Part shown: one piece after another, positions 1,954 through 40,221 of the stretch
How positions within the stretch are numbered: position 1 is the first letter of the stretch
Layout: each line of letters starts with the position of its first letter
Virus record (IMG/VR): IMGVR_UViG_3300032282_003758
Span: 1 to 40,221 of that record
Strand: one strand, 5' to 3'
From: a virus
DNA length: 40,221 nt
Made by a program: the position numbers and the translations under genes
Notes under the pieces: model-generated
Told to the model about the DNA's origin: nothing
What the model saw: the letters and a program-made list of their open reading frames with translations, nothing else
Database searches by the model: none

Positions 1954-1956
1954 GGT

Positions 1957-2220: not shown

Positions 2221-2223
2221 TGG

Positions 2224-3091: not shown

Positions 3092-3147
3092 GGGCACGGG
3101 CCACATTCCCGTGGCGCCCGGGCAATTTCTTGGGCACGGGTGGATAC

Positions 3148-4133: not shown

Positions 4134-4181
4134 TGTGGCCGATTTCCAATTTCCTCAATGCCCATGGGCGTTTTGTGGCAT

Positions 4182-4210: not shown

Positions 4211-4245
4211 TTTGCCGGGGTGGCTGTTGGGGTGGGGGGCGGTGC

Positions 4246-4755
4246 GTGAAGACGACTCCTTGGTCGATTTGTCCGCCGATCAACGAACTCCCGCCGCCAG
4301 CGACTCGCCAGCAGAAGGCTATTGCCGTCGAACTCCTCGGCGACACCCTGCTCTGGTATCAGCAGTACGGCGACCGTCCTTGCGACGTGCCCGAACTGAA
4401 CATCCGCCGTGCCATGCTGACGCAAGCCTGGAACGACCTGCACTACCCGCATCGCTATCCGGTCGTGTCTCACCTGGAGCGGTACAAGTTGCGGGCCTGG
4501 ATTCACGGCCAATACCCGAACAGCGGGGAATATCCATCTGCGCCTGGATATTCATTTGTAGAGATTTGCGATGCATTGGGGCTGAACCCGGACCTGACCC
4601 GGGCAGCCATGTTGGAGCGCAAGCCGCCGGCTCATAACTCCATCCGCGAGTACATCGTCCTCGACATGATGCACGTCAAACAGGTCGTGACTGGGGCCAG
4701 GCGTAGGGCTAAAAGAGCGCGGCGTGCCTCGGATCGACCAGCGAACCGTTGCTGA
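4246..4755 (+). CDS. Hypothetical protein preceding terminase
   Basis: 169 residues from GTG 4246 after a G-rich leader. The middle contains LNIRRAMLTQAWNDLHYP and YKLRAWIHGQYPNSGEY. The segment SFVEICDALGLNPDLTRAAM has the shape of a small helix-turn-helix and reminds me of a short domain in phage regulators and terminase-adjacent proteins that read FxxVCxALGLDPDxxR. The C terminus is strongly basic (GARRRAKRARRASDRPANRC). DNA binding is therefore likely, with a packaging-accessory or late-regulator role. The gene overlaps the terminase ATPase start by 32 bases. No firm family assignment. Confidence 0.6.
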   Translation: MKTTPWSICPPINELPPPATRQQKAIAVELLGDTLLWYQQYGDRPCDVPELNIRRAMLTQAWNDLHYPHRYPVVSHLERYKLRAWIHGQYPNSGEYPSAPGYSFVEICDALGLNPDLTRAAMLERKPPAHNSIREYIVLDMMHVKQVVTGARRRAKRARRASDRPANRC

Positions 4756-5626
4756 ATTAAGCGAGGAGGAACTTCGGAAACTCCTCGATCAGAACGCCAC
4801 TACCGCCATTGCGCTGCGTCGAAGGGGCAAGTTTGCTCTCTGGAAGCCCTTTCCGCACCAGCGTCCGGTCCTTGAGTGCGACAGGAAGATCATCCTTGCC
4901 ATCGCCGGCAACCAATGGGGCAAGACCGAACTCGGCGCCATCAAGACGGTAGCCGGGTGTACGGGCGTGCAGCCGCCCGCCCTGGGCGGTGAGATCCCGA
5001 AGGACTGGGCCGACGTGGACCGAGCGGGCCGGCGCTACCTCGCCATGGGCGAGAACTTCTCCAGCGCCATCCCGAAGACCATTCTGCCCAAACTGGAGCA
5101 GTTCATCGCCCAGGACATGATGTCCAAACCCCCGAAACGGGGCACCGGGACCAAACTCCCCGAGATATTTTACTTCAAATCGGGCGCCCAATTGCACATC
5201 ATGTCCTACGACCAGGATCCGGCGTCGTTCGAGGGCGCGGTCTGGGACGGTGTCTGGGCCGACGAGCCCCCGCCCGAAGGCATCTTCACCGCCGTTCGCC
5301 GCGGGACCATGGCCCGGCAGGGCTGGATTTTAATAACCGCGACTCCGATCAAGGAGCCGTGGATGTTCGACGCGCTAGTGGCGCCGTTGAACGACCCGGA
5401 CGCCGAAGCGCACGGCTTTAGTGCCGTTTTCCGCGGCGACATCCACGATAACTGCCGGGAATGCCACGGTGGGGCGCTTCCGCACGACGAGATCAGGGCA
5501 TTTTTGGCCGGGATTACGAACCCGGCCGAGCGGGCCGCCCGTGAGCGCGGCGAGTTTCTGGACATGGCCGGCGTGGAGTTCTGGTACGTTTCCCGTGAAA
5601 CACACGTCTGCCCTGCTCTTTGGTGA
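4724..5626 (+). CDS. Terminase large subunit, ATPase part
   Basis: 300 residues from GTG 4724. The Walker A motif is GNQWGKT at residues 62-68 and Walker B is AVWDGVWADE with D180 and E181; the coupling motif is seen in WILITATP near residues 201-208. This is the packaging motor ATPase that pumps DNA into proheads, in its GNQxGKT-type form. The ORF stops soon after GEFLDMAGVEFW and a THV segment, where complete terminases (about 450-550 residues) would pass through a linker into the nuclease domain. Here the nuclease is a separate ORF at 6064, with two small genes in between. It is thus half of a split enzyme, unless RNA or protein splicing joins the parts. Confidence 0.9.
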   Translation: MPRIDQRTVAELSEEELRKLLDQNATTAIALRRRGKFALWKPFPHQRPVLECDRKIILAIAGNQWGKTELGAIKTVAGCTGVQPPALGGEIPKDWADVDRAGRRYLAMGENFSSAIPKTILPKLEQFIAQDMMSKPPKRGTGTKLPEIFYFKSGAQLHIMSYDQDPASFEGAVWDGVWADEPPPEGIFTAVRRGTMARQGWILITATPIKEPWMFDALVAPLNDPDAEAHGFSAVFRGDIHDNCRECHGGALPHDEIRAFLAGITNPAERAARERGEFLDMAGVEFWYVSRETHVCPALW

Positions 5627-5646
5627 TGTGACATAGGCGACATGAC

Positions 5647-5892
5647 ATGGATGACCCGACGAAAGAGCAACTCCAAGACATGGAGGAGTGGGCCGGCGCC
5701 CTTGTCCAGCGGCTGGACGATTACGACCGCAAACTTGACCAGATCCGGCTCGCGCTCGCCAAGATGATCGTCGGGATGTCGGGCGTGCCCATCAAGATCG
5801 ACATCGAAAAGGATCTGGGCATTACCATCCCACGCGAAAGTCAGTTGGTTATGCCCGCTACCGTCGTCCCTGGGCCGCGCACAAACCAATGA
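5647..5892 (+). CDS. Small coiled-coil protein between the terminase halves
   Basis: 81 residues (MDDPTKEQLQDMEEWAGALV...). The first 40 residues form an acidic amphipathic helix with a possible coiled coil (LVQRLDDYDRKLDQIRLALA). The rest (VPIKIDIEKDLGITIPRES) may form strands. It begins 20 bases after the terminase ATPase stop and overlaps the next gene by ATGA. It has no endonuclease motif (HNH, GIY-YIG, LAGLIDADG), so it does not look like a homing gene that split the terminase. Function unknown. Confidence 0.65.
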   Translation: MDDPTKEQLQDMEEWAGALVQRLDDYDRKLDQIRLALAKMIVGMSGVPIKIDIEKDLGITIPRESQLVMPATVVPGPRTNQ

Positions 5893-6077
5893 CGCGCCGC
5901 AAGGTGACGCCGATCCGGCGGCCACCTGCCAGGCAGGACGTGTCAGGCGACGCCTGGCGTTCCGGCGAAACACGGCACCTCTGCGCGTTGTGCGCGAAGC
6001 CCATTCGGTGGGCCTTGGCTGTCTGCGCCTCCTGCTGGAAGGTCCATGGGGTAAACGAGCAATATGACCGACGCTAA
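5889..6077 (+). CDS. Small CxxC-CxxC zinc protein between the terminase halves
   Basis: 62 residues, very basic at the N terminus (MTRRKVTPIRRPPARQD) and with two knuckles, CALC and CASC, separated by about ten residues (HLCALCAKPIRWALAVCASC), typical of a single zinc-ribbon or treble-clef-like unit. It starts on the previous stop as ATGA and overlaps the start of the terminase nuclease gene by 14 bases, so the three ORFs appear to be read as one coupled unit. It might bind DNA or the packaging complex. It could also be a small nuclease fragment, but no catalytic HNH histidines are seen. Confidence 0.6.
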   Translation: MTRRKVTPIRRPPARQDVSGDAWRSGETRHLCALCAKPIRWALAVCASCWKVHGVNEQYDRR

Positions 6078-6786
6078 ATTGTGGCCCTGCGTCGAGGTCT
6101 GCGACCCCTCGACAAAACGCGGGATGTTCCTGATCTGGGCTGTTTTCTCGCCAGATGACCGGGTGTTCGTCGTCCGGGCCAAGCATGTGCCCGATGGCTC
6201 GTTCGACGTGATGTCCGAGGGCATCAAGTCTGAACGGACGCACCTACCCAGGCAGCCGGCCCTGGCAATCATGGACCAGCGGGGCGGCCAATTCACTTCC
6301 AACCGCGACCTAGAAAAGACGTTCTTTGACGAGTTCCACGAACGCGGTCTCCACTACGAGCCCAGCGTGGACACCCCCATGCAGAAACTCCACGACTGGC
6401 TGCGGCCGGTCTGGCGTCCAGACCTGGAACGGGCCCTGCCCAAACTCATGCTCACAGAACCCGTCGCCAACATGGCCGACGGGCCCCTTACCGCACTCGG
6501 GAGGTTCATATGGGATCCGACGCAAACGAAAGCCTGGCAGTACAAGCAGAAGTCGAAGGACTGGGTGGACTGCTTGAGGTATCTGGCGGGGTTCCCGGCG
6601 CTGACGTACCAGCGATTGCAGGGGAAAACGGACATGGAGCGGCCGGGGATAGCGGCGACCTACACCGAGCCGAGCCGCCGGCGGTTCGTCGGCGGGGACG
6701 TAGAGCAGAGGCTGCTCAACCGGGGCCTACTCCCGAATATCTCCGAGACGTACTCGGGCACCAGGCGGCGCGGCTCGGCCTTCTGA
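6064..6786 (+). CDS. Terminase large subunit, nuclease part
   Basis: 240 residues with an RNase H-like arrangement: a first acidic residue in CVEVCDPS (D14), strands GMFLIWAVFS and RVFVVRAKHV, LAIMDQRGG (D71), and SKDWVDCLRYLAGFP (D166/D169), the usual C-terminal metal-binding acidic element. This domain cuts concatemeric DNA at the start and end of packaging. It lacks an ATPase; that is the ORF at 4724. The start ATG overlaps the preceding zinc gene and has only a weak ribosome site, in keeping with coupling. The last 90 codons overlap another gene (6510-7238) in a different frame. Catalytic residues appear intact, so the split enzyme is probably functional. Confidence 0.8.
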   Translation: MTDAKLWPCVEVCDPSTKRGMFLIWAVFSPDDRVFVVRAKHVPDGSFDVMSEGIKSERTHLPRQPALAIMDQRGGQFTSNRDLEKTFFDEFHERGLHYEPSVDTPMQKLHDWLRPVWRPDLERALPKLMLTEPVANMADGPLTALGRFIWDPTQTKAWQYKQKSKDWVDCLRYLAGFPALTYQRLQGKTDMERPGIAATYTEPSRRRFVGGDVEQRLLNRGLLPNISETYSGTRRRGSAF

Positions 6787-7238
6787 TCGGCTCCTTGGAC
6801 GAACTCCTGGGGTTCGTGGGCGCGTTTATTGCGCCCGCCATCCAGGCCCAAACGGCAGCCATCGTCCAAGGCAACATGCTTCAGTTCCTGGGCGAGCGTG
6901 GCGTGTCGGTAGACCCGGATACGGGCAATATCTCGTTTTCGGAGGAGTTGCTGGAGTCCATCCGGCCGAAAGTTCCCTTGCCTCCGACTACGACGCTCTC
7001 GACCGACTTGTCCCAATTCCGCGAGCCACCGCCCGCGCCGGCACCGGAACTGGACTTGGACGTGCCGATGACTCGCAGGGAGGTGGTGGCACTTGTGCAG
7101 CGTTTGCAAAGTGGGCAAAGCCCGCCGCCGTACAGTCAAGCCCCTGCTCCGGCGTACCCTAGTTTCCGAAGCGAGGCGGTCTTGAGTGTCTTGGAAAGCC
7201 AGATCAGGGATGCTTGGAGACGACGCGGACGAGCCTAG
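6510..7238 (+). CDS. Hypothetical protein overlapping terminase nuclease and portal genes
   Basis: 242 residues from ATG 6510, which has an excellent GGGAGG site five bases upstream. The first 92 codons lie in another frame inside the terminase nuclease gene and are low in complexity. The segment from TPEYLRDVLGHQAARLGLLI on looks like an ordinary folded protein: helices with a hydrophobic stretch LLGFVGAFIAPAIQAQTAAI, then ERGVSVDPDTGNISFSEELL. A Pro-rich linker and a helical basic end follow. It overlaps the portal start by 53 bases. The lack of a later in-frame start with a ribosome site supports 6510. Role unknown; a head-assembly accessory is a guess from position. Confidence 0.6.
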   Translation: MGSDANESLAVQAEVEGLGGLLEVSGGVPGADVPAIAGENGHGAAGDSGDLHRAEPPAVRRRGRRAEAAQPGPTPEYLRDVLGHQAARLGLLIGSLDELLGFVGAFIAPAIQAQTAAIVQGNMLQFLGERGVSVDPDTGNISFSEELLESIRPKVPLPPTTTLSTDLSQFREPPPAPAPELDLDVPMTRREVVALVQRLQSGQSPPPYSQAPAPAYPSFRSEAVLSVLESQIRDAWRRRGRA

Positions 7239-30433: not shown

Positions 30434-33277
30434 ATGGGCCTCCCATCCGTTGACGATTTGTTCGGGGATCAACCGAACACTCCACCGTCCGCAGACGACC
30501 TGTTTCCAGATCCGCCCAGCGACAACCGGCCCATCGGCACGCCGCGCCCGATCCTCCCGCAGTCCGAGGTGAACCTGACACCGCCGTCCTTCATGGACAC
30601 GGTGAACATGGGCATCGACGCAGCACACCCCGAGGCGGTGAAGAGCGTTCTATCGGCAGCCGGGAACGTGGCGCTCCAGGGCGGCCTCGGCGTCGCAGGC
30701 GGCATGGCCGGCACGGCGCTTGGTATCGGGCCAATCGCGGGAGCAGGGATTGGGTCTATCGCTGGCGACGCCATCCGGCGCTATTTCGCGGGCGAGCCCG
30801 TGGCCGACGCCGTGAGCGTGCCGAACCTTGCGCGTGCCGCGATCTACTCGACCGTAGGCATGGGCGTGCCGAAGGCTGTTGGTGCCTTGCCTGGAATTGG
30901 ATCGGCGCTTGCCGCCGTGCAGAAAGCCACGCCGATCTGGGCACAGGACGCGGCCAAGTTCGCCACCACGCTGCCTGCTATCGACGCGCTGGAAAACACC
31001 CTGGGCGGCAGGCCCGCCACCGAAGGCATTACGCCCGAGCGCGTGGCGCTGGAGGCTTCACCGGCAGCACTCCCGCCGCTCATGCAATTTGGTGCGGCCG
31101 GAGCCAGGGCAGCAGGCCGGGGCATTGGCAATTTGGTTTCCGCGGTTCGCGGCGACCCGAGCGATCCTCGGGGTATCGTCGCCAGGCTGTCATCCATTGG
31201 CGGCGCTTCGGTGGCTGACGATGCCGTGAAGGGCGTCCCCATCGATGACTACATCGACATGCTGTCGCCACGGCAGACGGGCCTGCGGCGCTCGCGGGCT
31301 GGCGCGTCGCTGATGATGACGCCCGAAATCCAGCAGCGGCAAACTCGATTGCGGTCCATGTACGAGAACCTTGCCGCCGCCGGGGAGGAAGACAGGTGGG
31401 CCGGCTGGCGGCGGTGGGGCACGGCTCCTGCCTCAACGCTCAAGTACGGCAGCCTCCGCACGGATGAAGCCGCGCAGGCTCTCGGCGAAAACATCAAACG
31501 AGCCGGGATGTACAACCGCCGGATCGGCGAGAACTTCGGGTCTGCCGCAGAAGCCGTCATGGGGCGGCTTTCGTTGGCTGACCAGTTGGAAGTCCGCGCC
31601 CTGGTCGAAGACCCTTCGTTGATCCCGACCGCCGCGCCGCATCTACAGGACGCCGCAAACCGCATGGTGCGCGTCCTCGACAAGGCTTTCGATGTCATGT
31701 CAGAGGCTGGCGTCATGGTTCAGCGACCCGACAAACTGGAGCCGGTCGCCAAACTGCCAGCCTACTGGCCGCGCCGATTTAAAGTTCCCGAGGCCGATGT
31801 TCCAGAACTTGTAGACCTGATGAACAAGCACGGCGTCTCCCAAGAGGAGGCGTTGAAGATGATGCTGAACCCTCCCCGGCCAAGCATCGGAGAGTTCGTG
31901 CAGCATCAGCGCAAGCCGATTGCCATGGCAAACATGCCGGATCGGTTGAGCCCGCTGGAGGAGGTTCGGCAGTACGTCGCCGAGATGAGTAAGCAGTCCG
32001 GCCTGGCATACGCTGGCGGCGGCAATCTCGTGAACGGAGTTGGCGATGATTTCTTCCGGCTTTCTGGCTTAATTGGCGACCAGCGCAAAGCCGCGGAGGC
32101 CGTCAACTTCTTAAAAGATACCTACAAACGCACGCCGAAGGACTTTGCGGAATTGAGCGATGCCCGCAAATACATCAGCCGGGTCAACATGCCGCTCGCG
32201 TGGGCACGTCAGCCCGGCCAGTTGTCAATGGCGCCATCGCTTTATGGCGGGCGGAATATGCTCCGGGGATCGCTGCTCCGTTCACGCGACCCTTTAGTCG
32301 GAGAATTGACGGCACTCTCTGGTGCAGGTGAAGCCGGCCTTTCTTCCACGACGAACGCGCTGCTCGGCCTCGATACCGAGTCGGTTCCAATCTCCTGGCT
32401 CCGTAACATGGAGTACCAGTTGCGGGACAAGGTCGGGGCCCCGACCGGTTACGCAAAACTGATGGAGTTGGCCGACGCTGTCGGGGCCGGCACGCGCAAC
32501 GCGGCCATGGAGCGCGAGGCTTACGAACTCGGCACCTCGCTGGACGACATCGCGCAGCACCTGTCGTGGGGCGGCGGGAAACTAGACCCTTATATCAGCC
32601 GGTCGCTGATCATGGACTCGATGCAGCGGGCGTCGGACAACGCATTCCTTCAGACCACCATGGGCGAGTTGCCCAGGGCTTTTGAGAACCCGGCCGCGCA
32701 GTTTGTGCTTCAGTACCGGCCTTTCGGAGCAGGCCAGACCATCGCGGTGAAGAACCATATCGGCAACGTGATTCGCGATGGCATCTCGGTGGCACGTCAG
32801 ACCGGAGACACGAGCCTGCTCAAGTTGGGACTCACCCGCGCTGCCAGGCTAGGCGTCTACTCCGCGCCGACCAACGCCGGCGCCTCGGTCCTCTACTCGA
32901 CGCTGGCAGGCAGGGGCCTGCCCGATGCAACCACCGTTGGCCGTGATGTCCTTGGCGGGAGCCTGGGAATCGGAGGCGACTGGGTGTCGTCGCTGCTTGG
33001 GCTTTCCGGTCACGGATCCGTAGCCGACACGATGGCGACGATCCCGGGCATTGAGACGGTCGGCAATTTGAGCGGGGAGGCATGGAAGTCGGCAGAGAAC
33101 ACCCTGTCCGGCGACTACGACGCGGCCATGCTGGGGGCTCTCCGGCTCGGCATGACGCTCGCTGCCGGGACCGATCCGACCGGGCTCACCGCTCTGGTGA
33201 ACAAGCCTCTGTCCGGCTGGCTCGGTAGCGCCCGTCGAGCGGCCGAGGACAATAACCGAGAGAGCCTGTCCTACTGA
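30434..33277 (+). CDS. Largest internal virion / ejection protein 4
   Basis: 947 residues. The start MGLPSVDDLFGDQPNTPPSA has two SxDDLF-like repeats typical of disordered N termini of ejection proteins. Residues 75-115 are a Gly/Ala-rich hydrophobic run (GGLGVAGGMAGTALGIGPIA). The long middle is helical. The C-terminal third has GSLGIGGDWVSSLLGLSG and further hydrophobic stretches. Comparable in size to the third core protein of podoviruses. It ends in TGATG, overlapping the endolysin start, so lysis genes are in the same late transcript. Confidence 0.65.
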   Translation: MGLPSVDDLFGDQPNTPPSADDLFPDPPSDNRPIGTPRPILPQSEVNLTPPSFMDTVNMGIDAAHPEAVKSVLSAAGNVALQGGLGVAGGMAGTALGIGPIAGAGIGSIAGDAIRRYFAGEPVADAVSVPNLARAAIYSTVGMGVPKAVGALPGIGSALAAVQKATPIWAQDAAKFATTLPAIDALENTLGGRPATEGITPERVALEASPAALPPLMQFGAAGARAAGRGIGNLVSAVRGDPSDPRGIVARLSSIGGASVADDAVKGVPIDDYIDMLSPRQTGLRRSRAGASLMMTPEIQQRQTRLRSMYENLAAAGEEDRWAGWRRWGTAPASTLKYGSLRTDEAAQALGENIKRAGMYNRRIGENFGSAAEAVMGRLSLADQLEVRALVEDPSLIPTAAPHLQDAANRMVRVLDKAFDVMSEAGVMVQRPDKLEPVAKLPAYWPRRFKVPEADVPELVDLMNKHGVSQEEALKMMLNPPRPSIGEFVQHQRKPIAMANMPDRLSPLEEVRQYVAEMSKQSGLAYAGGGNLVNGVGDDFFRLSGLIGDQRKAAEAVNFLKDTYKRTPKDFAELSDARKYISRVNMPLAWARQPGQLSMAPSLYGGRNMLRGSLLRSRDPLVGELTALSGAGEAGLSSTTNALLGLDTESVPISWLRNMEYQLRDKVGAPTGYAKLMELADAVGAGTRNAAMEREAYELGTSLDDIAQHLSWGGGKLDPYISRSLIMDSMQRASDNAFLQTTMGELPRAFENPAAQFVLQYRPFGAGQTIAVKNHIGNVIRDGISVARQTGDTSLLKLGLTRAARLGVYSAPTNAGASVLYSTLAGRGLPDATTVGRDVLGGSLGIGGDWVSSLLGLSGHGSVADTMATIPGIETVGNLSGEAWKSAENTLSGDYDAAMLGALRLGMTLAAGTDPTGLTALVNKPLSGWLGSARRAAEDNNRESLSY

Positions 33278-33690
33278 TGGTCAACTCCCGCAAGATCAGC
33301 GACCTCTTGCCGGTCGTCGGCAAGAAGTGTGCTGCCTTCATCGCCCAGGCCAAGGCCGCTGGGATCGAGGTCGTGATCACCAGCACCTACCGGGACCATG
33401 CATCGCAGGATGCACTTTGGGCCATCGGCCGGACCAAGCCCGGCCGGCGCGTGACCAATGCCAAGGGCGGCCAGTCGTTCCACAACTTCCGGGTGGCGTG
33501 GGATTTCGTGCCGGTCATCGCAGGCAAGGCAGTATGGAACGACCTGTCGCTGTTCCGGCGATGCGGCGAGATCGGCGAGGCGCTCGGCTGCGAGTGGGGC
33601 GGGCGTTGGAAGATGCGGGACTATCCCCACCTACAATACACGGGCGGCCTCACGCTGCGGCAGTTGCGGGCCGGTGAGGTTCCAACGTGA
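33277..33690 (+). CDS. Endolysin, L-alanyl-D-glutamate peptidase (M15C-like)
   Basis: 137 residues. The zinc site is visible as SFHNFRVAWD (H69, D76) and RDYPHLQ (catalytic D115, ligand H118), with the substrate-side segment ITSTYRDHASQDALWAIGRT. This is the compact VanY/CwlK-like peptidase fold used by T5-type and many other endolysins, which cleaves the L-Ala-D-Glu or related bond of peptidoglycan. No signal peptide or SAR segment, so it needs a holin, which is two genes downstream. Start overlaps the previous stop (TGATG). Confidence 0.85.
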   Translation: MVNSRKISDLLPVVGKKCAAFIAQAKAAGIEVVITSTYRDHASQDALWAIGRTKPGRRVTNAKGGQSFHNFRVAWDFVPVIAGKAVWNDLSLFRRCGEIGEALGCEWGGRWKMRDYPHLQYTGGLTLRQLRAGEVPT

Positions 33691-33956
33691 GCGAATACAT
33701 CTGGCAGGGCGTCCTGCTCCTGGTGCAGGCGGCCATCGGAACGGGCGTCGGCGTAGCCGTCCGCTCGCTACGCGAGATCCACGGCGATGTGGAGCGAATC
33801 AGCGGGCACCTTCAATCGCTCAACGGGCGCGTGGGCAGGACCGAGCAGAAATTGGCCGACCACGAAAACCATTGCGACGACCGTCACGACAGGCACAGGA
33901 CAGATTACATGTCGTTGCGCGACCGCGTCGACCGGGTATTTGGAGGATCGAAGTGA
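33687..33956 (+). CDS. Membrane-anchored coiled-coil lysis protein (XhlA or i-spanin-like)
   Basis: 89 residues from GTG 33687, overlapping the endolysin stop as GTGA. Residues 4-25 form one hydrophobic helix (IWQGVLLLVQAAIGTGVGVA). The rest is a charged coiled coil (VERISGHLQSLNGRVGRTEQ) with a His-rich turn HENHCDDRHDRHR and ending in FGGSK. This topology occurs in inner-membrane spanins and in haemolysin XhlA-like phage proteins. No outer-membrane partner lipoprotein overlaps it; the lipoprotein at 9234 is a distant candidate. Confidence 0.6.
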   Translation: MSEYIWQGVLLLVQAAIGTGVGVAVRSLREIHGDVERISGHLQSLNGRVGRTEQKLADHENHCDDRHDRHRTDYMSLRDRVDRVFGGSK

Positions 33957-34117
33957 ACGACCTTGACTACAAGTGGCTGCTCATCTTCATTGCACAACTC
34001 GGCGCGGGCCTTGCAATCGTGTTTGCGGCCGGCCCAGAACTTCGCGAACTGGGCATCGGCCTAATCGGCGGCGCGTTCGGCGCTGGTGTCACGGCCTCGC
34101 GGACGCTGGTAAGGTAG
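33953..34117 (+). CDS. Small holin
   Basis: 54 residues from GTG 33953 (GTGA overlap), too short for many gene callers. Two hydrophobic helices are seen: WLLIFIAQLGAGLAIVFAAG and LGIGLIGGAFGAGVTAS, joined by a short turn with PELREL. Small size, two membrane segments and the place after endolysin and coiled-coil protein all fit a class II holin, which makes lesions in the inner membrane for release of the endolysin. It is the last late gene, and its 3' end overlaps the convergent gene by 29 bases. Confidence 0.65.
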   Translation: MNDLDYKWLLIFIAQLGAGLAIVFAAGPELRELGIGLIGGAFGAGVTASRTLVR

Positions 34118-34388
34118 TCCGCAGGCCGATGCGCCCGTAGACCGAGCAAATCGAGTCGATTAATAGGCCGACGAGCGGCTCAAGCGACGCCCAGGGAACG
34201 TCGCGCACCTCGCGCACGCCGTCGAGGGCTCCGGTCCTGCGGGCGCCTTCGTAAACTGCGCCCACCAGGTCGGTGACGGCCTTGCGCTTCTGCTCGTTGC
34301 TGGCGTTGGGCACCGCGTCGAGAGCGCGAATGAACCTCGTCACGAACGGCGTCAGGTCTGCGAGCAGCACAAACACGTTGGATCCCAT
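34089..34388 (-). CDS. Hypothetical protein, last gene of the right minus-strand operon
   Basis: 99 residues from ATG 34388, with AGGAG six bases upstream; an ATG at 34394 abuts that site and is less likely. NVFVLLADLTPFVTRFIRAL, NASNEQKRKAVTDLVGAVYE and LEPLVGLLIDSICSVYGRIG are amphipathic to moderately hydrophobic helices. The end overlaps the holin gene tail to tail by 29 bases and no terminator separates the two transcripts, so antisense interference between early and late RNA is likely. Family not recognised. Confidence 0.6.
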   Translation of the reverse strand: MGSNVFVLLADLTPFVTRFIRALDAVPNASNEQKRKAVTDLVGAVYEGARRTGALDGVREVRDVPWASLEPLVGLLIDSICSVYGRIGLRTTLPASARP

Positions 34389-34400
34389 CGTCATCTCCTA

Positions 34401-34688
34401 CTACGGCCAGCGAGGCTGGGCGGGTTCTGGTTCGGTTTCGTCCGCAATCATCAGCAGGACGAGGTAGCCGGCGAGGTCCATCAGGGCATCTTCGTCGTCC
34501 CACTCGTCGTGGCCGTTCAGCAGCCGCGATAGTTTATCGTCAATTCGCACGCGCAACTGCTCTCTGGTGTCGGCTTGCGAGAAAATTCGCACCGGGTTCA
34601 GCGCGGAGTCTCCGTACCGTTCGTTCTTTCGGAGCAGCATGTCGAGCAGGTGGCCGCACTTTGACCGGATCCGGTCGGCGGTCGTCAC
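34401..34688 (-). CDS. DUF1599-like (nucleotide-modification-associated domain) protein
   Basis: 95 residues from GTG 34688, which overlaps the upstream stop (GTGA) and has GAGGAA at a good distance. LLDMLLRKNERYGDSALNPV, then RIDDKLSRLLNGHDEWDDED and LMDLAGYLVLLMIADE match the pattern I recall for DUF1599/Nmad1-type domains (KNxxYGDS ... RxxDKxxRL ... DxLxDLAGYxxL). That family appears in phages beside nucleotide metabolism genes and resembles the helical MazG/dUTPase group with acidic metal sites. Enzyme activity is not established. Confidence 0.6.
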   Translation of the reverse strand: MTTADRIRSKCGHLLDMLLRKNERYGDSALNPVRIFSQADTREQLRVRIDDKLSRLLNGHDEWDDEDALMDLAGYLVLLMIADETEPEPAQPRWP

Positions 34689-35014
34689 GGGATGTTCCTC
34701 TGGTTCCATTGGTCGCACACCCTCTTGACGTGCCGCTGCGGCATCATCGGTTGGTTCGGCAGGGGCACGTCGTCGATGGCTGCCACCACCTGCCCACTCC
34801 GTGTCCGCGCTACCAATTGCCACGTCGCGCTCGACCCTGGGATCGCTTCGACGTAGACCGCCCGGCACCTGTACAGATTGCGGCCCATAGGGCAGGGACC
34901 AGTCTGCATCATCGAGGCCACGCGCCGGTTCTTGTACCAAAGGTCGGCGGCCACGGTGTCTGGCGGAAGGAACCGCACCCGCGCAAGCAAGCAGTATGCG
35001 GCTAGGGCTGTCAC
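34685..35014 (-). CDS. Hypothetical protein with possible N-terminal membrane segment
   Basis: 109 residues from GTG 35014 (GTGA overlap with the upstream gene). It begins MTALAAYCLLARVRFLPPDT and includes LWYKNRRVASMMQTGPCPMG, CRAVYVEAIPGSSATWQLVA and VPLPNQPMMPQRHVKRVCDQ. It looks like a small alpha/beta protein with four cysteines. The operon position among recombination genes gives the only context. Not recognised. Confidence 0.55.
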   Translation of the reverse strand: MTALAAYCLLARVRFLPPDTVAADLWYKNRRVASMMQTGPCPMGRNLYRCRAVYVEAIPGSSATWQLVARTRSGQVVAAIDDVPLPNQPMMPQRHVKRVCDQWNQRNIP

Positions 35015-35184
35015 GCTGTTTCGACGTGGACCTTCTCGATGGTCGTGTCTAGGCCCGCCCCTGCGCGGACATACAGGTCTTTTTGCAGCCGCTCGGCAAG
35101 CGCCCGGGTTGCACAGATGCCCTTGATTTCAACGAGTGACGGCGCCACGTCGGCTGATCGCCGCACGACTAGCCACACGGTCAC
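35011..35184 (-). CDS. 57-residue hypothetical protein
   Basis: GTG at 35184 overlaps the stop of the upstream gene (GTGA). MTVWLVVRRSADVAPSLVEI then CATRALAERLQKDLYVRAGA and LDTTIEKVHVETA suggest a compact beta-alpha-beta fold. Its size and the tight coupling on both sides support a real gene. Small proteins reading (W)VVxR...EIKGICxTRxLAExL occur in phages, but I know no function. Confidence 0.55.
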   Translation of the reverse strand: MTVWLVVRRSADVAPSLVEIKGICATRALAERLQKDLYVRAGAGLDTTIEKVHVETA

Positions 35185-35396
35185 GTCCGCACCAGTTGAT
35201 TTAGGGGCTTGCAGCCGCGAATCGCCACGCCCGTAGGCGTGCGGCATAACTTGCCGCAGGGCGTGCCGCTGATGATGAGCGGCCGACAGCGGCGCTCGAC
35301 CGGAGCGCCGAAGGCCACGCGCACCACGCACCAAGCGACCACGCCCCAGAACGTCAGCGCCAGCAGCATCGGTAGGGTCAGTCCTCGTCGGAGCAT
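35181..35396 (-). CDS. Small single-pass membrane protein
   Basis: 71 residues from ATG 35396. LPMLLALTFWGVVAWCVVRV (residues 9-28) is a membrane helix, preceded by basic residues and followed by a cysteine-bearing soluble part (CRPLIISGTPCGKLCRTPTG). The start lies within the end of the resolvase gene (19-base overlap). An uncleaved anchor with an outside cysteine domain is likely. It could be a superinfection-exclusion or lysis-timing factor, but there is no direct evidence. Confidence 0.55.
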   Translation of the reverse strand: MLRRGLTLPMLLALTFWGVVAWCVVRVAFGAPVERRCRPLIISGTPCGKLCRTPTGVAIRGCKPLNQLVRT

Positions 35397-35719
35397 AAGC
35401 CACCTTTCTCCGCGATAAACGCCGTCAGGAACCGGATGTAGGTGCCCCACTCCATCACGACCATCGGCTGCGTGATCCCGTCGCGGGCGAGAAACAGGAG
35501 GTCGTTGCCGGCTAGCCACCGGCTAATCACGGCAAAGCCCTCGCCGTTCTTGCGCGCCTTCACTTCGCAGCGCAGCGGGCCGACCTGCACGTCGCCTTTG
35601 TAGTTCGCCATCGCGCCCGAGAGCGGGATTCTCTGTGCAGGGATGCCGCTCTCTTGGTGCCGCTGCACGACCATGCGCTCGATGCGGCTACCCTTGCGCC
35701 TGCGGCCAGCGGGCGTCAC
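35378..35719 (-). CDS. Holliday-junction resolvase, Hjc-type
   Basis: 113 residues from GTG 35719 (GTGA overlap). The archaeal/phage resolvase pattern is clear: KGSRIERMVV (E14), RIPLSGAMANYKGDVQV (D43), then CEVKARKN (E52, K54), and SRWLAGNDLLFLARDGITQP. E, D, ExK in this spacing are the catalytic residues of the PD-(D/E)XK Hjc family. The enzyme resolves four-way junctions and here sits in an operon with an exonuclease and a probable annealing protein. It is complete. Confidence 0.75.
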   Translation of the reverse strand: MTPAGRRRKGSRIERMVVQRHQESGIPAQRIPLSGAMANYKGDVQVGPLRCEVKARKNGEGFAVISRWLAGNDLLFLARDGITQPMVVMEWGTYIRFLTAFIAEKGGLCSDED

Positions 35720-36024
35720 GCGGCCACCCAGACGACGGCCTGCCGGCCGCTTCGCGTGAGACGCCGGCGGCCCGAGTCCCGCACCTGGCCGCGATTGACC
35801 AGTTCGACCCGCCTTGGCCGCTGGGTGGAGCCACCCAAGGAGAGCGCGGTCTGGATCTCTTCGTCGGTCGCGCCGTCGATGCGCTCGCGCAAATACGCAA
35901 GCACTTGCGCCCGCAACGCAGCGGCGTCTGCGATCTTATGCGCCGCTTCCACCGAGGTCGCGCTGTGGGCCTGGAACAATGGCCCCAGCGCCTCGACCCC
36001 TTGCCGCATCAACCCCCGCCCCAT
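35716..36024 (-). CDS. Winged-helix DNA-binding protein
   Basis: 102 residues from ATG 36024, six bases after AGGAGG; an adjacent ATG at 36027 is too close to it. ATSVEAAHKIADAAALRAQV is the lead-in helix, then DGATDEEIQTALSL and RPRRVELVNRGQVRDSGRRR followed by LTRSGRQAVVWVA. This is the winged-helix unit found in many phage proteins with TDEEIxxxL...RRxELVxxGLVxDSGxxRxTxSGRxAxVW. It may regulate genes or assist replication. The short 62-base gap to the upstream gene holds a hairpin. Confidence 0.65.
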   Translation of the reverse strand: MGRGLMRQGVEALGPLFQAHSATSVEAAHKIADAAALRAQVLAYLRERIDGATDEEIQTALSLGGSTQRPRRVELVNRGQVRDSGRRRLTRSGRQAVVWVAA

Positions 36025-36041
36025 CATCCACCTCCTGCACC

Positions 36042-36077
36042 GGGAGGGGCCAGCCGTCAGGGCGGCCGGCCCCTCCC
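36042..36077 (-). other. Hairpin between annealing-protein and winged-helix genes
   Basis: GGGAGGGGCC (36042-36051) pairs perfectly with GGCCCCTCCC (36068-36077), and an inner GCCG/CGGC pair is possible. No T-run follows in the minus direction, so it may reduce read-through or protect mRNA, rather than end transcription. It separates the recombination genes from the small genes downstream. Confidence 0.5.
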
Positions 36078-36086
36078 GTCCCCCTC

Positions 36087-37022
36087 TCAAATCTCGATGT
36101 CGCCGATCTCCGGCCACTCGCGCTCGTCCTCGATGACCTCGCGAATAGCGACGATTTCGTGCGAGCCGTACTTGGCCTCGTCGGAGATGACTGCGGATAC
36201 CATCACGCCATCCTTGAGCAGCGTCCCGAAGTCGTCCTTCAGCGTGGAAATCCTGACGCCTTCCTCGGTCGAGGCGCTGTGCTTTGTGAAGGAGAACGGC
36301 TTGCCGTCCTTCCTCACCCCTTCCTTCAGATCGTGCCACGCCTTCTTGATTCGGAAGGTCTGGTACTCGTCCTCTCCGAACTCCGAGGCCGTGGCCGCGG
36401 CGCGGCCCTCTGACACGCGGGAAGCCGGGTCCGGCCGAGGAGGGGAGGAGGCAGCCAGGTCCGAGAGGAAGCGGACTGGTCGCACGGCCTCCGCGGCCGG
36501 ACCCGGGTCGGCGCTGGCCGCGGGATTGGTCGCGGTGACAGCGCACGTCTCTAGTTCAGTCTCATCGAGCATCCCGAGGCCGCACACGCTCAAAATGGCG
36601 CGTCTCTTCGCCTTGGTCGATGCCTTCATGAGGGCGTTGGCGAGTGCGTCGCCTTTCAAGTTGGCGATGGGCACCGCGCCGATCTCGTCCACCGAGCGCC
36701 CGTCCGGGGTGGTTGCACGCACGGTGACCACGCGGATGCCGTCCTCGGTGCGCTGGTCCTGGATCGCGACTGCGATCTTGTGCGCTGCGGTCAACTGGTC
36801 GGTCGCGCCCTTCAATGCGTACAGCACCAGACGCCCCGACAGCGTGATATACTGGAACGGCTGCGCCCGGTAGTCGAGGCCCGCCGCGTCGCAGCGGGCC
36901 CGGTAGTACCGTAGCCGCTGTTCGGCCGACAGTTTGGAGCAGTCGCCGTCGCTGACCAGCCGCAGGATGGTCTGGTCGTCCAGGTCGTGGCGCTCGGCCA
37001 CGGCCACTTCGTTCTTTGCCAT
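36087..37022 (-). CDS. Probable single-strand annealing / recombination protein
   Basis: 311 residues from ATG 37022, which overlaps the exonuclease stop as TAATG. A domain from about residue 25 to 165 has RLRYYRARCDAAGLDYRAQP, YITLSGRLVLYALKGATDQL, VAIQDQRTEDGIRVVTVRAT and LANALMKASTKAKRRAILSV, then CGLGMLDETELE. I recall this pattern in phage proteins encoded beside YqaJ exonucleases, a pairing which in lambda (Exo/Bet) and RecE/RecT marks an exonuclease and annealing protein. A Pro/Ala-rich linker leads to a second beta-rich domain ending DIEI. The exact family (RecT, Erf, Rad52 or a new one) cannot be decided by eye. Confidence 0.6.
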   Translation of the reverse strand: MAKNEVAVAERHDLDDQTILRLVSDGDCSKLSAEQRLRYYRARCDAAGLDYRAQPFQYITLSGRLVLYALKGATDQLTAAHKIAVAIQDQRTEDGIRVVTVRATTPDGRSVDEIGAVPIANLKGDALANALMKASTKAKRRAILSVCGLGMLDETELETCAVTATNPAASADPGPAAEAVRPVRFLSDLAASSPPRPDPASRVSEGRAAATASEFGEDEYQTFRIKKAWHDLKEGVRKDGKPFSFTKHSASTEEGVRISTLKDDFGTLLKDGVMVSAVISDEAKYGSHEIVAIREVIEDEREWPEIGDIEI

Positions 37023-37918
37023 TAGTTGGCTCCCTTCCACTTCGCGATTGCGAACTTCTCGTAGGTGTAGGCGTTGACCTGCTTGGCCGGCACCGTGACG
37101 CTGCTGCGCTTGCAGGCCATGCCGCGCTCCGCGATCACGCCGATCTCTGCGTCGCCCTGGAGCGCAAGCAACTGCGCCTGGAAAGCCTTGCTCTCCTTTT
37201 CCGCGGCCGACGCGATGGCCTTCTGCTGCTGGTAGGAGTCGAACAGGACGACAGCCTCGGACGGCAGCGACACGATCTTTTTGGGCTGCGCCGGGACCAA
37301 GCGGGCCCACGTCTTGATGTCGCCTTCCGACGCCGGCGGCGGCGTCTGGCCTGTCACCACGAACCGTTCCCAGAACTCATGGAGTTCTGACAGGATCGCG
37401 TCCTCGGCGCCGGCATGGCGCTCGACGCGAGGGCAGGTGTAGTCCGAGCCGGCGATCAACGTGGGGAAATCGTCCCAGGGCGCGTTCATGACGCACATCT
37501 CGACGGCGGCCTGGATCTGGTAGTAGAGCGGCGGCTGGCCGTCCGGCCACGACGACACGGATGACGTGGCCTTGGCCTGCGCGAGTCCGGCCTGTTCCTT
37601 GCCCGACAGCACAATGGCGTCTGGCGTAGCGGCCAGGAACGGGTGCTTGTCCGATGCGTGCAGGAGTTCGTTGGGCACGACGGTCAGGTCGGTATCGAGC
37701 GCGTACCGGCGCAGGATGGCGGGCTCCAGCAGCCGGCCAAGACGCATACGCTCCGTCTCTTCGAAGGGCTCGGCCTGGCCCATCTTGTCCAGCCACACAT
37801 CGAGCCGTGAACGCCACGGGCTGTGGCCGAGGACCGACGCCGCGTCGGACGCGGTGAGGTAGCGACGCCGGGCTGCAAGCCAAGCGTCACGGTCTGCGGT
37901 CTGGATGGCGGTTGCCAT
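37022..37918 (-). CDS. YqaJ-type viral recombinase exonuclease
   Basis: 298 residues from ATG 37918 with AGGGGGG upstream. WLAARRRYLTASDAASVLGH is the standard start of the YqaJ domain, then GRLLEPAILRRYALDTDLTV (E), HPFLAATPDAIVLSGKEQAG (catalytic D), LAQAKATSSVSSWPDG (usually VEAK/LQVK; here AQAK, so the first acidic position is replaced by Q), and PLYYQIQAAVEMCVM. The family chews one strand of duplex DNA 5' to 3', feeding the annealing protein. The AQAK variant could weaken catalysis or reflect alignment ambiguity. Confidence 0.8.
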   Translation of the reverse strand: MATAIQTADRDAWLAARRRYLTASDAASVLGHSPWRSRLDVWLDKMGQAEPFEETERMRLGRLLEPAILRRYALDTDLTVVPNELLHASDKHPFLAATPDAIVLSGKEQAGLAQAKATSSVSSWPDGQPPLYYQIQAAVEMCVMNAPWDDFPTLIAGSDYTCPRVERHAGAEDAILSELHEFWERFVVTGQTPPPASEGDIKTWARLVPAQPKKIVSLPSEAVVLFDSYQQQKAIASAAEKESKAFQAQLLALQGDAEIGVIAERGMACKRSSVTVPAKQVNAYTYEKFAIAKWKGAN

Positions 37919-37919
37919 G

Positions 37920-38078
37920 TCACACCCCCCTGACCAGCGCCGCGACCGCGAGGATCGCCAGCAAGGCGCCGCCGAACGCCGCGCTGAGGACATGATGCCA
38001 CTCGTACCGCGGAGCAGCCGGGGGCTGCTCCAGCGGGACGATGTAGCCCCCGATCCGCGTGTACTGCCGGGCGCTCAC
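37920..38078 (-). CDS. 52-residue tail-anchored membrane protein
   Basis: GTG 38078 overlaps the upstream stop (GTGA). A soluble N terminus (SARQYTRIGGYIVPLEQPPA) is followed by VLSAAFGGALLAILAVAALV, one membrane helix ending in ArgGlyVal. It lies between the first gene of the operon and the exonuclease. Too short for most gene callers; the coupled start and clean hydrophobic segment support it. Function unknown. Confidence 0.55.
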   Translation of the reverse strand: MSARQYTRIGGYIVPLEQPPAAPRYEWHHVLSAAFGGALLAILAVAALVRGV

Positions 38079-38299
38079 GACGCCACCCGGGACGGCTTGT
38101 AGGTGTCGAAGTTGCTGTAGTCGGTTTCCGGCGCCTGCGCCGGATCGCCGACGAGCATAGCCTCGATCTCGGAACCGATGGCGAGGATGCAGTCGCGCAT
38201 CTCGGTTTTCGACTCGGAGTACAGATCGCCGGTGTATTTTCCGCGGATCTCGGCGCAGCGCACCAGGATCTTCATGAGCCTCTTCTCCCTGTCTCCCAT
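38075..38299 (-). CDS. First gene of the recombination operon, hypothetical
   Basis: 74 residues from ATG 38299 with a near-perfect ribosome site (AAGGAGGAATCC). The product is helical: MGDREKRLMKILVRCAEIRG, then SESKTEMRDCILAIGSEIEA, and a disordered end with NFDTYKPSRVAS. The frame is open upstream but that part carries the promoter, so this start is firm. Strong translation and first place suggest an early, abundant protein. Family not recognised. Confidence 0.65.
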   Translation of the reverse strand: MGDREKRLMKILVRCAEIRGKYTGDLYSESKTEMRDCILAIGSEIEAMLVGDPAQAPETDYSNFDTYKPSRVAS

Positions 38300-38346
38300 G
38301 GATTCCTCCTTGTCTCCGGGGTTGGTTTGTCCGGCGACTGATCCTG

Positions 38347-38375
38347 TCAATACTGTCACGGGAGAAACAAGTCAA
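38347..38375 (-). promoter_or_regulatory. Promoter of the recombination operon with an overlapping operator half-site
   Basis: On the minus strand: TTGACT (38375-38370), 17-bp spacer, TATTGA (38352-38347). The start of transcription would be near 38340, 40 bases before the ATG at 38299. TTGACAGGATCA (38350-38339) overlaps the -10 and start point and is identical to 38667-38678 in the integrase/RHH intergenic region. A second TGACAG precedes it at a 9-base period (TGACAGTATTGACAG). Confidence 0.5.
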
Positions 38376-38396
38376 GCGGCCTTGACGATTTTGGGC

Positions 38397-38425
38397 AAAA
38401 AAAGGGCGCCCGGTCAGGGGCGCCC
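38397..38425 (-). terminator. Rho-independent terminator after the RHH gene
   Basis: On the minus strand GGGCGCCC, loop CTGACC, GGGCGCCC, then seven T. The arms are themselves palindromic and the T-run is present only in the minus direction. It lies 12 bases past the RHH stop and just before the promoter of the recombination operon, so the regulator is its own transcription unit. Confidence 0.9.
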
Positions 38426-38436
38426 TGGATGTCCGG

Positions 38437-38637
38437 TCACATGGCTTGCTTGATTTTGGGCGGCCGAAGCATACGCCGCGCCTCCAGCGCCTCGCGCAGG
38501 AGGGCTCGGATGACGCGCGATCTTGGCCGGTCCTCCGACTGCGCGATGTAGTTGATTGCGTCGTTCAGATCGTCGGTGAGCCGGACGAACACGTTCGGCC
38601 CCATGGCGTTCTCGGCTTCTTGCGGCTTTCCAGGCAT
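38437..38637 (-). CDS. Ribbon-helix-helix (CopG/Arc-like) regulator
   Basis: 66 residues from ATG 38637, seven bases after GAGGG; ATG 38643 abuts that site. NVFVRLTDDLNDAINYIAQS is the beta-ribbon and first helix, and EDRPRSRVIRALLREALEAR the turn and second helix of an RHH domain, which binds DNA as a dimer through the ribbon. It is alone in its unit: a terminator follows and the integrase is divergent. The palindrome and half-sites at both neighbouring promoters make it the likely repressor of itself, the integrase and the recombination operon. It is the only phage-repressor candidate of this type I see. Confidence 0.75.
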   Translation of the reverse strand: MPGKPQEAENAMGPNVFVRLTDDLNDAINYIAQSEDRPRSRVIRALLREALEARRMLRPPKIKQAM

Positions 38638-38666
38638 AGTCATACCCTCAAGGTTAGTTGACTTCC

Positions 38667-38695
38667 TTGACAGGATCAAGTGGATCCTGTAGCGC
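38667..38695 (+). promoter_or_regulatory. Possible integrase promoter
   Basis: TTGACA (38667-38672, perfect), 17-bp spacer, TAGCGC (38690-38695, poor). The predicted start would fall at or close to the ATG at 38702, so the integrase message could be leaderless. On the opposite strand TTGATC (38679-38674), 17 bp, TAACCT (38656-38651) may serve the RHH gene. Both overlap the palindrome at 38670-38690. Confidence 0.35.
38670..38690. promoter_or_regulatory. Operator-like palindrome between RHH and integrase genes
   Basis: ACAGGATC, five bases AAGTG, GATCCTGT: a perfect 8-bp inverted repeat. Its left arm is part of TTGACAGGATCA, the 12-mer that recurs at 38339-38350 in the promoter of the recombination operon. 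RHH repressors bind short inverted or direct half-sites, so ACAGGATC is a good candidate half-site. Confidence 0.6.
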
Positions 38696-38701
38696 GGTCG
38701 C

Positions 38702-39688
38702 ATGGGCGTGCGCTCTCTTGCGGAGGTCGGGGGGGACTCGGTAGTTGCCGGGCACCGCTCCCCCCCCGTCCCGACGATGCAACTCGATCTGTTTGTCGCG
38801 CCCGAGCGCACGCTTGCGGGCTACTGCTCCCGCTGGGATGCGGCCTACAACGGCGCCCCATGGGTGTCCGACCGCACGGCGCGTCTGCGCCGAGGGCACC
38901 TGCGCCTGTACGTCCTGCCGCGCTTCGGGGCCTACGCCGTCGATCAGATCACGTCTCCGGCCGTGAACGACTGGCAGGAGGCGCTGCTGTCTCGCGGTAT
39001 ATCGGTCGGCTACGCGAAGCACGTTTCGGTGTCGTTCTCCGCAGTCTTGGCGCAGGCGTGCCGGGATGGCCTCATCCAGACCAACCCGGTGCGCGGCCTG
39101 CGGTGGCCCCGCAGGAACAGCGAGCGCCCAGACCCGTACACCGCGACCGAGGTGCGCCGGATGCTCCGCTGGTTCAAGAGATGGAAGGTTGAGTACCTGC
39201 CCTTGGTCGGGCTGGTTTGCTTGGCCGGGCTTCGGCCTTCCGAGGCCTGCGGGCTGCGCTGGTCCGACGTGGACCTTGGGGCGCGGTCGCTCAAGATCGA
39301 GCGGTCGGCCGTGGATCGGGTCGAGGGCGAGCCCAAGACCAGGCGCAGCCGGCGTCGGATCAGACTCACGCTGGAGTTGGTCGAGATCCTGCGGTCGGCC
39401 GAGCGCCGTGGGCCGTGGGTCTGCACCACCCCCGCGGGCGAGCAGGTGTCCTCCGGGTACTGGGGCGGGTTCCATTGGAGGGTTGCCTGCCAGTCGGCCG
39501 GCGTCCGGTATCGCGGGTTCTACCGGGGACGGTCGGCCTTTATGACGCAGGCGGCCCAGCGCGGGGCCAATCTGCTGGCCCTGTCCGAGTACTCCGGCAC
39601 CTCGATGCGGATGCTGGACGAGCATTACCTGCGGTGGCTCCGGGTGCAGGAGGTGCCCGGGGAGAGGAGGAGGCGTCGGCATGCGTAA
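38702..39688 (+). CDS. Tyrosine recombinase (integrase)
   Basis: 328 residues from ATG 38702; an ATG at 38777 would shorten it by 25. An N-terminal SAM-like domain (YAKHVSVSFSAVLAQACRDG, NPVRGLRWPRRN) precedes the catalytic part: GLRPSEACGLRWSDVD with R178, KTRRSRRRIRL as the beta2-beta3 lysine region, FYRGRSAFMT as box II with Y274 in place of the usual His and R277, and MLDEHYLRWL with H308 and nucleophile Y309. It would integrate the circle at a host site and implies a temperate or recently temperate phage. No attP or excisionase was recognised with confidence. The His-to-Tyr change may alter efficiency but is tolerated in some relatives. Confidence 0.8.
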   Translation: MGVRSLAEVGGDSVVAGHRSPPVPTMQLDLFVAPERTLAGYCSRWDAAYNGAPWVSDRTARLRRGHLRLYVLPRFGAYAVDQITSPAVNDWQEALLSRGISVGYAKHVSVSFSAVLAQACRDGLIQTNPVRGLRWPRRNSERPDPYTATEVRRMLRWFKRWKVEYLPLVGLVCLAGLRPSEACGLRWSDVDLGARSLKIERSAVDRVEGEPKTRRSRRRIRLTLELVEILRSAERRGPWVCTTPAGEQVSSGYWGGFHWRVACQSAGVRYRGFYRGRSAFMTQAAQRGANLLALSEYSGTSMRMLDEHYLRWLRVQEVPGERRRRRHA

Positions 39689-39709
39689 CGCATACAGCAT
39701 TTCGCCCAC

Positions 39710-39735
39710 GTTCTTGGTTGGAGACGCGCAAGAAC
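39710..39735. promoter_or_regulatory. Inverted repeat downstream of integrase
   Basis: GTTCTTG (39710-39716) and CAAGAAC (39729-39735), 12 bases between. It could be an operator covering the -35 of the replication promoter or part of an attP core. The spacer is longer than the usual 6-8 bp of a tyrosine-recombinase core. Another small palindrome (ATGCGT A ACGCAT, 39681-39693) covers the integrase stop. Confidence 0.4.
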
Positions 39736-39746
39736 ACCAATAGAAT
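39718..39746 (+). promoter_or_regulatory. Promoter of the replication operon
   Basis: TTGGAG (39718-39723), 17-bp spacer, TAGAAT (39741-39746, five of six consensus bases). The start would be near 39753, about 14 bases before the ATG pair at 39767/39770, just leaving the GGGAGG ribosome site in the leader. Confidence 0.45.
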
Positions 39747-39766
39747 CAGGCACTTATGGGAGGTGG

Positions 39767-40221
39767 ATGATGGGGACGGGTACGCGGTGGTGGATGCCCC
39801 TTCGGTTCTGTGAGTTGCACGCGACCCCCGAGTTTCGCCGGCTGTCAGAGGGCGAGCGGTGGCAGGTGGTGGAGTCGCTCTGCGACGCCTGGTTCGTCGG
39901 AGAACTGCCGCCTCAACCGGCCGGCGTGACCGACGCGGCCAGGGCGGTGGTCGAGCGCCTGTGGCCGACCTACGAGGCCGAGATCGCGAAGGCGACGGAC
40001 ATCAGCGAGAAGCGCCGGGCTGCGATCAGGAAGCGGTGGGATGCACATGAATCCCGCTTGAATGCCGACAGTAGTACCACAACAAAACACAACAAAACAA
40101 AACAACTCACTCCTAAAGGAGTGAGGAGTAGGCGACCGCCTGCGGCGTTCGCGCCGGACGACAGCCATCGAGTGATAGCCGAGGAGCGCGGAATCGACCT
40201 TGCCGCCCAACTCGCGGCCTT
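39767..40221 (+). CDS. Phage replication initiator-like protein, N-terminal part (continues at position 2)
   Basis: Joined over the redundant ends, this gene codes for 201 residues (39767-40098 plus 1-274). It starts ATGATG after a clear GGGAGGTGG ribosome site; the second ATG at 39770 is equally possible. The N-terminal part (WMPLRFCELHATPEF, then SEKRRAAIRKRW near residue 90) resembles DUF1376-type phage replication proteins, in which a KRRxAAxxRW stretch is common. A Thr/Lys/Asn/Gln-rich linker around residues 105-115 is encoded by an A/C-only tract. The family often acts as initiator or primosome component for phage DNA, working with a helicase loader, which is the next gene. The C-terminal half is described in the entry at 2-274. 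The family call is by motif, not by search. Confidence 0.7.
   Translation, partial: MMGTGTRWWMPLRFCELHATPEFRRLSEGERWQVVESLCDAWFVGELPPQPAGVTDAARAVVERLWPTYEAEIAKATDISEKRRAAIRKRWDAHESRLNADSSTTTKHNKTKQLTPKGVRSRRPPAAFAPDDSHRVIAEERGIDLAAQLAA
40076..40106 (+). other. A/C-only tract inside the replication gene, candidate origin element
   Basis: Thirty-one consecutive bases are only A or C, with AACAAAAC at 40081-40088 and again at 40091-40098. The tract is strikingly AT-rich in a GC-rich genome and is followed at once by an 8-bp perfect hairpin. In lambda the origin lies inside the initiator gene O, with AT-rich DNA next to repeats. By analogy this could be the unwinding element. It may also simply encode a polar linker. 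Confidence 0.4.
40099..40221. repeat. Right copy of terminal direct repeat
   Basis: Second copy of the 123-base repeat seen at 1-123. Removing one copy gives a 40,098-bp circle. No inverted repeats or gene-free ends typical of a phi29-like protein-primed linear genome are seen. Confidence 0.95.
40106..40125. repeat. Perfect stem-loop next to the A/C tract (same as 8-27)
   Basis: CTCACTCC, loop TAAA, GGAGTGAG: an 8-bp perfect inverted repeat with a four-base loop. The identical element at 8-27 is the other copy of the terminal repeat. It lies within the replication gene, so it is not an ordinary terminator. Its position next to the A/C-only tract makes a replication or RNA-structure role possible. 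Confidence 0.6.

Follow-up and report, generated by a model that had tools for sequence, protein, structure and literature searches.

An RHH protein as candidate repressor in the early-control region of an uncultured podovirus clade

What controls the early genes of a virus whose integrase and recombination operon run in opposite directions, with one small RHH gene between them? The original prediction, made from the window (the whole 40,221-bp virus record analysed here), was that the RHH protein represses its own gene, the integrase and the recombination operon. The window has a GC content of 64% and a 123-bp terminal repeat, which bears out the 40,098-bp circle assumed in that prediction, and it encodes endolysins, a major head protein and a portal/head-tail adaptor of T7 type (podovirus-like; phrog_332/1216). 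Judging from three relatives, the RHH protein is probably the master repressor of the recombination, integrase and replication genes. We consider it likely that the locus is an early-control (immunity-type) region of lambda-like layout, with a 68-aa RHH protein in place of CI.

The RHH gene and the phages that share it

At the right end of the window, a leftward operon (a small gene, a YqaJ exonuclease, a probable annealing protein and a resolvase-like gene) is followed by the leftward RHH gene, the rightward integrase and a replication-initiator-like gene spanning the circle join:

36087 to 37022, minus strand: probable single-strand annealing protein, 311 aa (weak Rad52/22 match, E=0.12; adjoins the exonuclease)
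37022 to 37918, minus strand: YqaJ-family (RecE-like) recombination exonuclease (PF09588, E=2e-21; phrog_434, E=1e-59)
38075 to 38299, minus strand: small first gene of the leftward operon, 74 aa, good Shine-Dalgarno
38437 to 38643, minus strand: RHH (Arc/CopG-like) gene, 68 aa, candidate repressor (PF01402, phrog_3431, model, orthologues)
38702 to 39688, plus strand: tyrosine integrase, 328 aa (PF00589, E=3e-8; phrog_1, E=4e-41)
39767 to 40221 and on across the circle join to position 274, plus strand: replication-initiator-like gene, 201 aa (phrog_1032/phrog_1408)

The assignment of the 311-aa product as a single-strand annealing protein is tentative, and family searches gave no match for the 74-aa product. 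The integrase has orthologues in the relatives G007 and L056 (39-40% identical). By eye and without formal alignment, Tyr seemingly replaces the usual motif II active-site His (YxxR for HxxR) in the integrases of the window (38702-39688), G007 (L044 3135-4121) and L056 (6921-7907). A terminator-like hairpin lies on the antisense strand within the replication-initiator gene (40106-40125, minus strand), adjoining an A/C-rich low-complexity stretch (ACAACAAAACACAACAAAACAAAACAA).

The RHH gene lies between the two sites named in the original prediction, and its product scores above the gathering cut-off of PF01402 (24.7 bits against 20.5, E=2e-5), passing the sequence-profile test. Its start is the ATG at 38643, rather than that of a longer GTG frame. 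In the structural model, helices at residues 24-37 and 41-55 (pLDDT about 90 there) follow an N-terminal extended stretch; the fold was counted as beta-alpha-alpha with this stretch not assigned as a strand in the monomer model. The best PDB matches found with Foldseek were RHH proteins, with probabilities up to 0.99 but E>0.1. The protein matches the Arc-like repressor family phrog_3431, and its resemblance to Arc-like PHROGs and to Arc structures is weak. The RHH genes of the window (38635-38643), G007 (L044 3006-3014) and L056 (6851-6859) open with ATG-NNN-ATG-CC (M-x-M-P), a doubled start codon of possible relevance to leaderless translation.

The searches that found relatives used the portal, YqaJ and replication genes. 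Nine fragments of the clade were picked up by their portal similarity (83-94%), and two of these, G007 and G009, hold the control region; the third relative with this region, L056, was found via its replication gene. In the closest relative, the portal gene (94% identity; L007 1963-3930) contains a stop codon, which points to either a contig error or a disrupted gene. The control region is known from four phages, the three relatives being incomplete records. All three keep the order leftward operon, RHH gene, intergenic A, rightward genes, with an RHH orthologue at the equivalent position that is 27-36% identical to the window protein (about 35% in G009). In G009, the replication gene directly follows intergenic A, and no integrase was found at the locus or elsewhere in its 19-kb fragment. 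Used alone as queries, the integrase and the RHH protein returned no relatives among viral contigs, nor did the RHH protein among phage records. The distant YqaJ phages (L002-L006, L050 and L051) gave no RHH_1 match.

Putative operators and predicted divergent promoters

The sites and predicted signals around the RHH gene are as follows:

38338 to 38350, minus strand: operator B, TTGACAGGATCAG, covering the -10 region of the leftward promoter of the recombination operon (diverged G009 copy, CTGGCAGGATCAG)
38347 to 38375, minus strand: P_operon (PL-like), predicted from sequence; -35 TTGACT 38370-38375, 17 bp, -10 TATTGA 38347-38352
38403 to 38426, minus strand: strong predicted intrinsic terminator after the RHH gene
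38651 to 38679, minus strand: P_rhh (PRM-like), predicted from sequence; -35 TTGATC 38674-38679, 17 bp, -10 TAACCT 38651-38656
38667 to 38679, plus strand: operator A, TTGACAGGATCAA, which also supplies both divergent -35 boxes (identical 13-mer in G009)
38667 to 38701, plus strand: P_int (PR-like), placed by eye; -35 TTGACA 38667-38672, 17 bp, weak -10 TAGCGC 38690-38695
38670 to 38690, no strand: perfect inverted repeat ACAGGATC-N5-GATCCTGT, 5 bp between arms, second arm window-specific

The prediction started from a 12-mer pair and an inverted repeat, and both are present as described: TTGACAGGATCA occurs exactly twice in the window, at 38667-38678 (plus strand) and 38339-38350 (minus strand), and the perfect arms of the repeat lie at 38670-38677 and 38683-38690. 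The palindrome had been taken to define the operator, a role that the relatives do not support. They keep the 13-mer, and the second arm is absent at operator A of G009, G007 and L056. On the sequence comparison, the unit conserved in the relatives is the 13-mer TTGACAGGATCA[A/G], not the palindrome, and the palindromy of operator A arises partly because two -35 boxes overlap. The half-site ACAGGATC, for which a scan of the circle had been proposed, has four copies in the window compared to 0.83 expected, a number reached in 1 of 100 shuffles; beyond the three half-sites, one copy lies inside the YqaJ coding sequence at 37390. Copies of the 12-mer with two mismatches (at 1823, 34661 and 37387) are at chance expectation, and those at 1823 and 37387, which fall within likely coding frames, were set aside as chance. 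LexA-type boxes (CTGT-N8-ACAG) were ruled out by eye, as their arms face the opposite way. The 21-bp palindrome had 18 viral-contig matches, many being duplicates of just one or two sequences, in contexts seemingly unrelated to the clade, and is therefore not usable as a clade signature.

Both sites had been placed on promoter elements. For operator A this holds fully, as the 13-mer provides the -35 box of the rightward promoter (TTGACA) and that of the leftward one (TTGATC); the recombination-operon site is also on a promoter, but more likely over its -10 (TTGACT-17-TATTGA) than on the -35 itself. The equivalent of P_operon in G009 (TTGACA-17-TCTGAT) likewise has the diverged operator copy overlapping its -10. 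One 13-bp element makes up both back-to-back -35 boxes, for the leftward RHH gene and for the rightward integrase or replication gene, in 4/4 phages. The leftward P_rhh reads TTGATC-17-TAGACC in G009, TTGACG-17-TATCAG in L056 and, by eye, TTGCAC-17-TAGGCG in G007, and P_int reads TTGAAT-17-TATGGC in G007 and TTGACA-18-TAGAGC in L056. P_rhh in each of the four phages, and P_int in three of them, thus shows a -35, a 17-18 bp spacer and a -10, with a start codon 6-9 nt on. The RHH ATG lies 7 nt past the -10 in the window, 8 nt in G009, 9 nt in L056 and 6 nt in G007 (by eye), and the RHH mRNA is predicted to be leaderless or nearly so in all four. The -10 to integrase ATG distance is 6 nt in the window, G007 and L056, so the integrase mRNA is also predicted to be leaderless; the rightward promoter of G009 (TTGACA-17-TATAGG) has a normal leader to the replication gene. 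A generic promoter scan of the window listed none of the operon, RHH and integrase promoters because their -10 boxes depart widely from the sigma-70 consensus, that of P_int (TAGCGC) matching it at only 2 of 6 bases. Terminator-like hairpins were seen by eye in G007, G009 and L056 at the place of the window terminator, whose position between the RHH gene and the operon promoter suggests that RHH is most likely its own transcription unit.

Conservation of the sites was examined in each phage. Intergenic A of G009 carries the exact window 13-mer, and CAGGATCA recurs in both operator regions, A and B, of the window as well as of G009. Its presence in all four regions was matched by 0 of 20,000 shuffled sets and by 0.025% of random real chunk sets. 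There are three copies in the 40,098 bp of the window and only two in 13 kb of G009, both at operators. When both phages were scanned with a matrix from their sites, the two operators were the top two places in each, a result that is circular for the operators used to build the matrix, with a large gap to the next match in the window. The G007 element, CTTGNANNGNNCAAGACGG, is found at its operon promoter and again at intergenic A, which is duplicated; L056 has [AG]CCCGTTTC[CT]CTTGACA at both operator sites. These elements differ from that of the window, yet each is common to its own A and B sites. The duplication in G007 (L044 3035-3135) is a tandem one of the whole divergent-promoter element (CCCGCTTG...CAAGACGGGGTAGTATGGCG), whose two copies are about 69 bp apart. 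The shuffling probability for A/B sharing was 0.003 in the window, 0.04 in G007, 0.0003 in L056 and 0.24 in G009 alone (Fisher p=1.4e-5 for the four phages combined). G009 alone is not significant, and its weight comes from sharing the words of the window. A regulon under one RHH protein, comprising its own gene, the integrase and the recombination operon, is well supported by this site conservation and by the phage-specific operator pairs, with the 13-mer rather than the palindrome as the likely operator. The proposed regulon also includes the replication-initiator gene downstream of int, which had not been named.

Apparent exchange of the control cassette and competing explanations

Among the four phages, the identities are 27-37% for the RHH protein, 62-64% for YqaJ and 83-94% for the portal (in G009, 62% for YqaJ and 48% for REP). 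Between G007 and L056, DNA identity is 89.6% rightward of a point 3 nt ahead of the integrase ATG; the two integrases are 95% identical and the two RHH proteins 37%. BLASTN of G007 against L056 gave no match from the integrase start through the RHH gene to the second gene of the leftward operon. The RHH gene and both operator regions changed jointly and the integrase did not, the pattern expected of an immunity cassette. It is as if the control cassette, operators and RHH gene together, had been exchanged as one.

The shared words could in principle be promoter elements (TTGACA -35 boxes), with the palindrome being two overlapping -35s and no common repressor involved, and at operator A the 13-mer is exactly the 6+1+6 bases of the two divergent -35 boxes in 4/4 phages. 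However, the same 12 bases recur at operator B, at a single leftward promoter and mostly outside its likely -35, the diverged G009 copy overlaps a -10, and neither the GGATC core nor the G007 flank CAAGACGG is part of the -35 consensus, which makes this explanation quite improbable. We give very little credence to the sites being arm-type binding sites of the integrase or an excisionase: operator A does adjoin int, but both sites persist in G009, which lacks an integrase at the locus, and those of G007 and L056 differ entirely in spite of their nearly identical integrases.

A different role for a common repressor is unlikely, although it deserves more weight than either of these. The RHH protein might time early genes in a lytic or carrier-state phage, as a CopG/ParD-like autoregulator limiting replication and recombination, with the integrase an optional passenger. 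G009 fits this, as it keeps RHH and both operators without an integrase between RHH and the replication gene, so that the circuit need not concern lysogeny; G009 is a fragment, however, and an integrase may lie elsewhere. No prophage of the clade was found among 84,980 species genomes searched with YqaJ and portal profiles on genome contigs. Against this role, the integrase is directly under the operator in three of the four phages, and G007 and L056, which seem to have exchanged the entire RHH cassette, look like a case of immunity diversification. A lysogeny switch is plausible.

Proposed circuit and comparison with known repressors

In the immunity-type circuit that we favour, the RHH gene would be transcribed leftward, from a promoter placed back-to-back with the one for the rightward integrase and replication-initiator genes. 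We infer that RHH binds the operators and that binding represses. Since operator A contains both -35 boxes, bound RHH would block both divergent promoters, shutting off the rightward operon and its own gene (autoregulation). The second operator copy lies on the -10 of the recombination promoter, and the same protein, bound to operator B, would silence that leftward unit. RHH transcription would end at its own terminator before the operon promoter, which would make the repressor a unit of its own. Low RHH levels would let all three promoters fire, giving early lytic growth; at high levels the genome would be silent, in lysogeny or delayed early expression. We also infer that the promoters start at the predicted positions and that the outcome is lysogeny.

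This layout resembles that of lambda in that a leftward repressor gene is flanked by the recombination promoter, directed leftward, and the replication promoter, directed rightward, the repressor and rightward promoters are back-to-back over one operator, and the control cassette is variable among relatives. The repressor mRNA is leaderless in both, by prediction in the window and naturally for lambda cI (PMC4965119). In contrast to lambda, the window has an RHH protein rather than an HTH, cleavable CI, no cro, an integrase placed first in the rightward operon, and one 13-bp site per promoter region instead of three. At the sequence level, the repressor gene is flanked by divergent early promoters that share its putative operators. 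In the scanned window flanks (1-7238 and 33277-40221), HTH_3, CI and Cro gave no match, and the other HTH-type matches were of homeodomain/transposase type only; the region may therefore work like a lambda immunity region without being one. The absence of a CI/Cro pair, part of the original prediction, thus holds for these flanks but less clearly for L056, where a frame in the leftward operon (4466-5092, minus strand) ends, by eye, in a Cro/CI-like HTH. It is a possible second regulator, and RHH may not be the sole switch protein there.

Arc and Mnt of phage P22 are phage-encoded RHH repressors. P22 immI is a secondary control locus, and P22 also has a CI-type repressor (c2), whereas the RHH gene of the window occupies the main early-control position. 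CopG-type plasmid copy regulators are RHH autorepressors near a replication-initiator gene, with rep in the same operon. The window RHH is a proposed autorepressor near such a gene but is divergent from it and also faces the recombination operon. In the archaeal virus SSV1, the carrier state is maintained by F55, a 55-aa RHH protein that binds a short sequence word in the early promoters and in that of its own gene (PMC9608457, PMC5569661). By description, the window protein may act like F55, being a small RHH protein with shared candidate sites at predicted early promoters and its own promoter, which it would bind; F55 differs in its archaeal host and promoters and in its tandem ATAGATAGAGT sites. 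A search of the open library, mostly at the level of titles and abstracts, turned up no tailed bacterial phage described as having an RHH protein for its main immunity repressor. LUZ100, an integrase-bearing T7-like phage, has another proposed switch protein, which is MarR-like (PMC10134795).

We tentatively propose, as a possibility, that this uncultured podovirus clade has given up the CI/Cro switch for one RHH repressor of 64-68 aa, with an operator that serves at the same time as two divergent -35 boxes, that the repressor and integrase mRNAs are leaderless or nearly so, and that exchange of a cassette of about 0.65 kb (the repressor and both operators) creates new immunity types. Annotation pipelines call a phage temperate by looking for CI-like proteins, and small RHH genes mostly end up annotated as hypothetical or antitoxin-like. 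If RHH proteins do act as master early repressors in tailed bacterial phages, as F55 does in SSV1, many phages in which no repressor has been recognised would become interpretable, and the four operator/RHH pairs would form a natural series for the evolution of RHH specificity.
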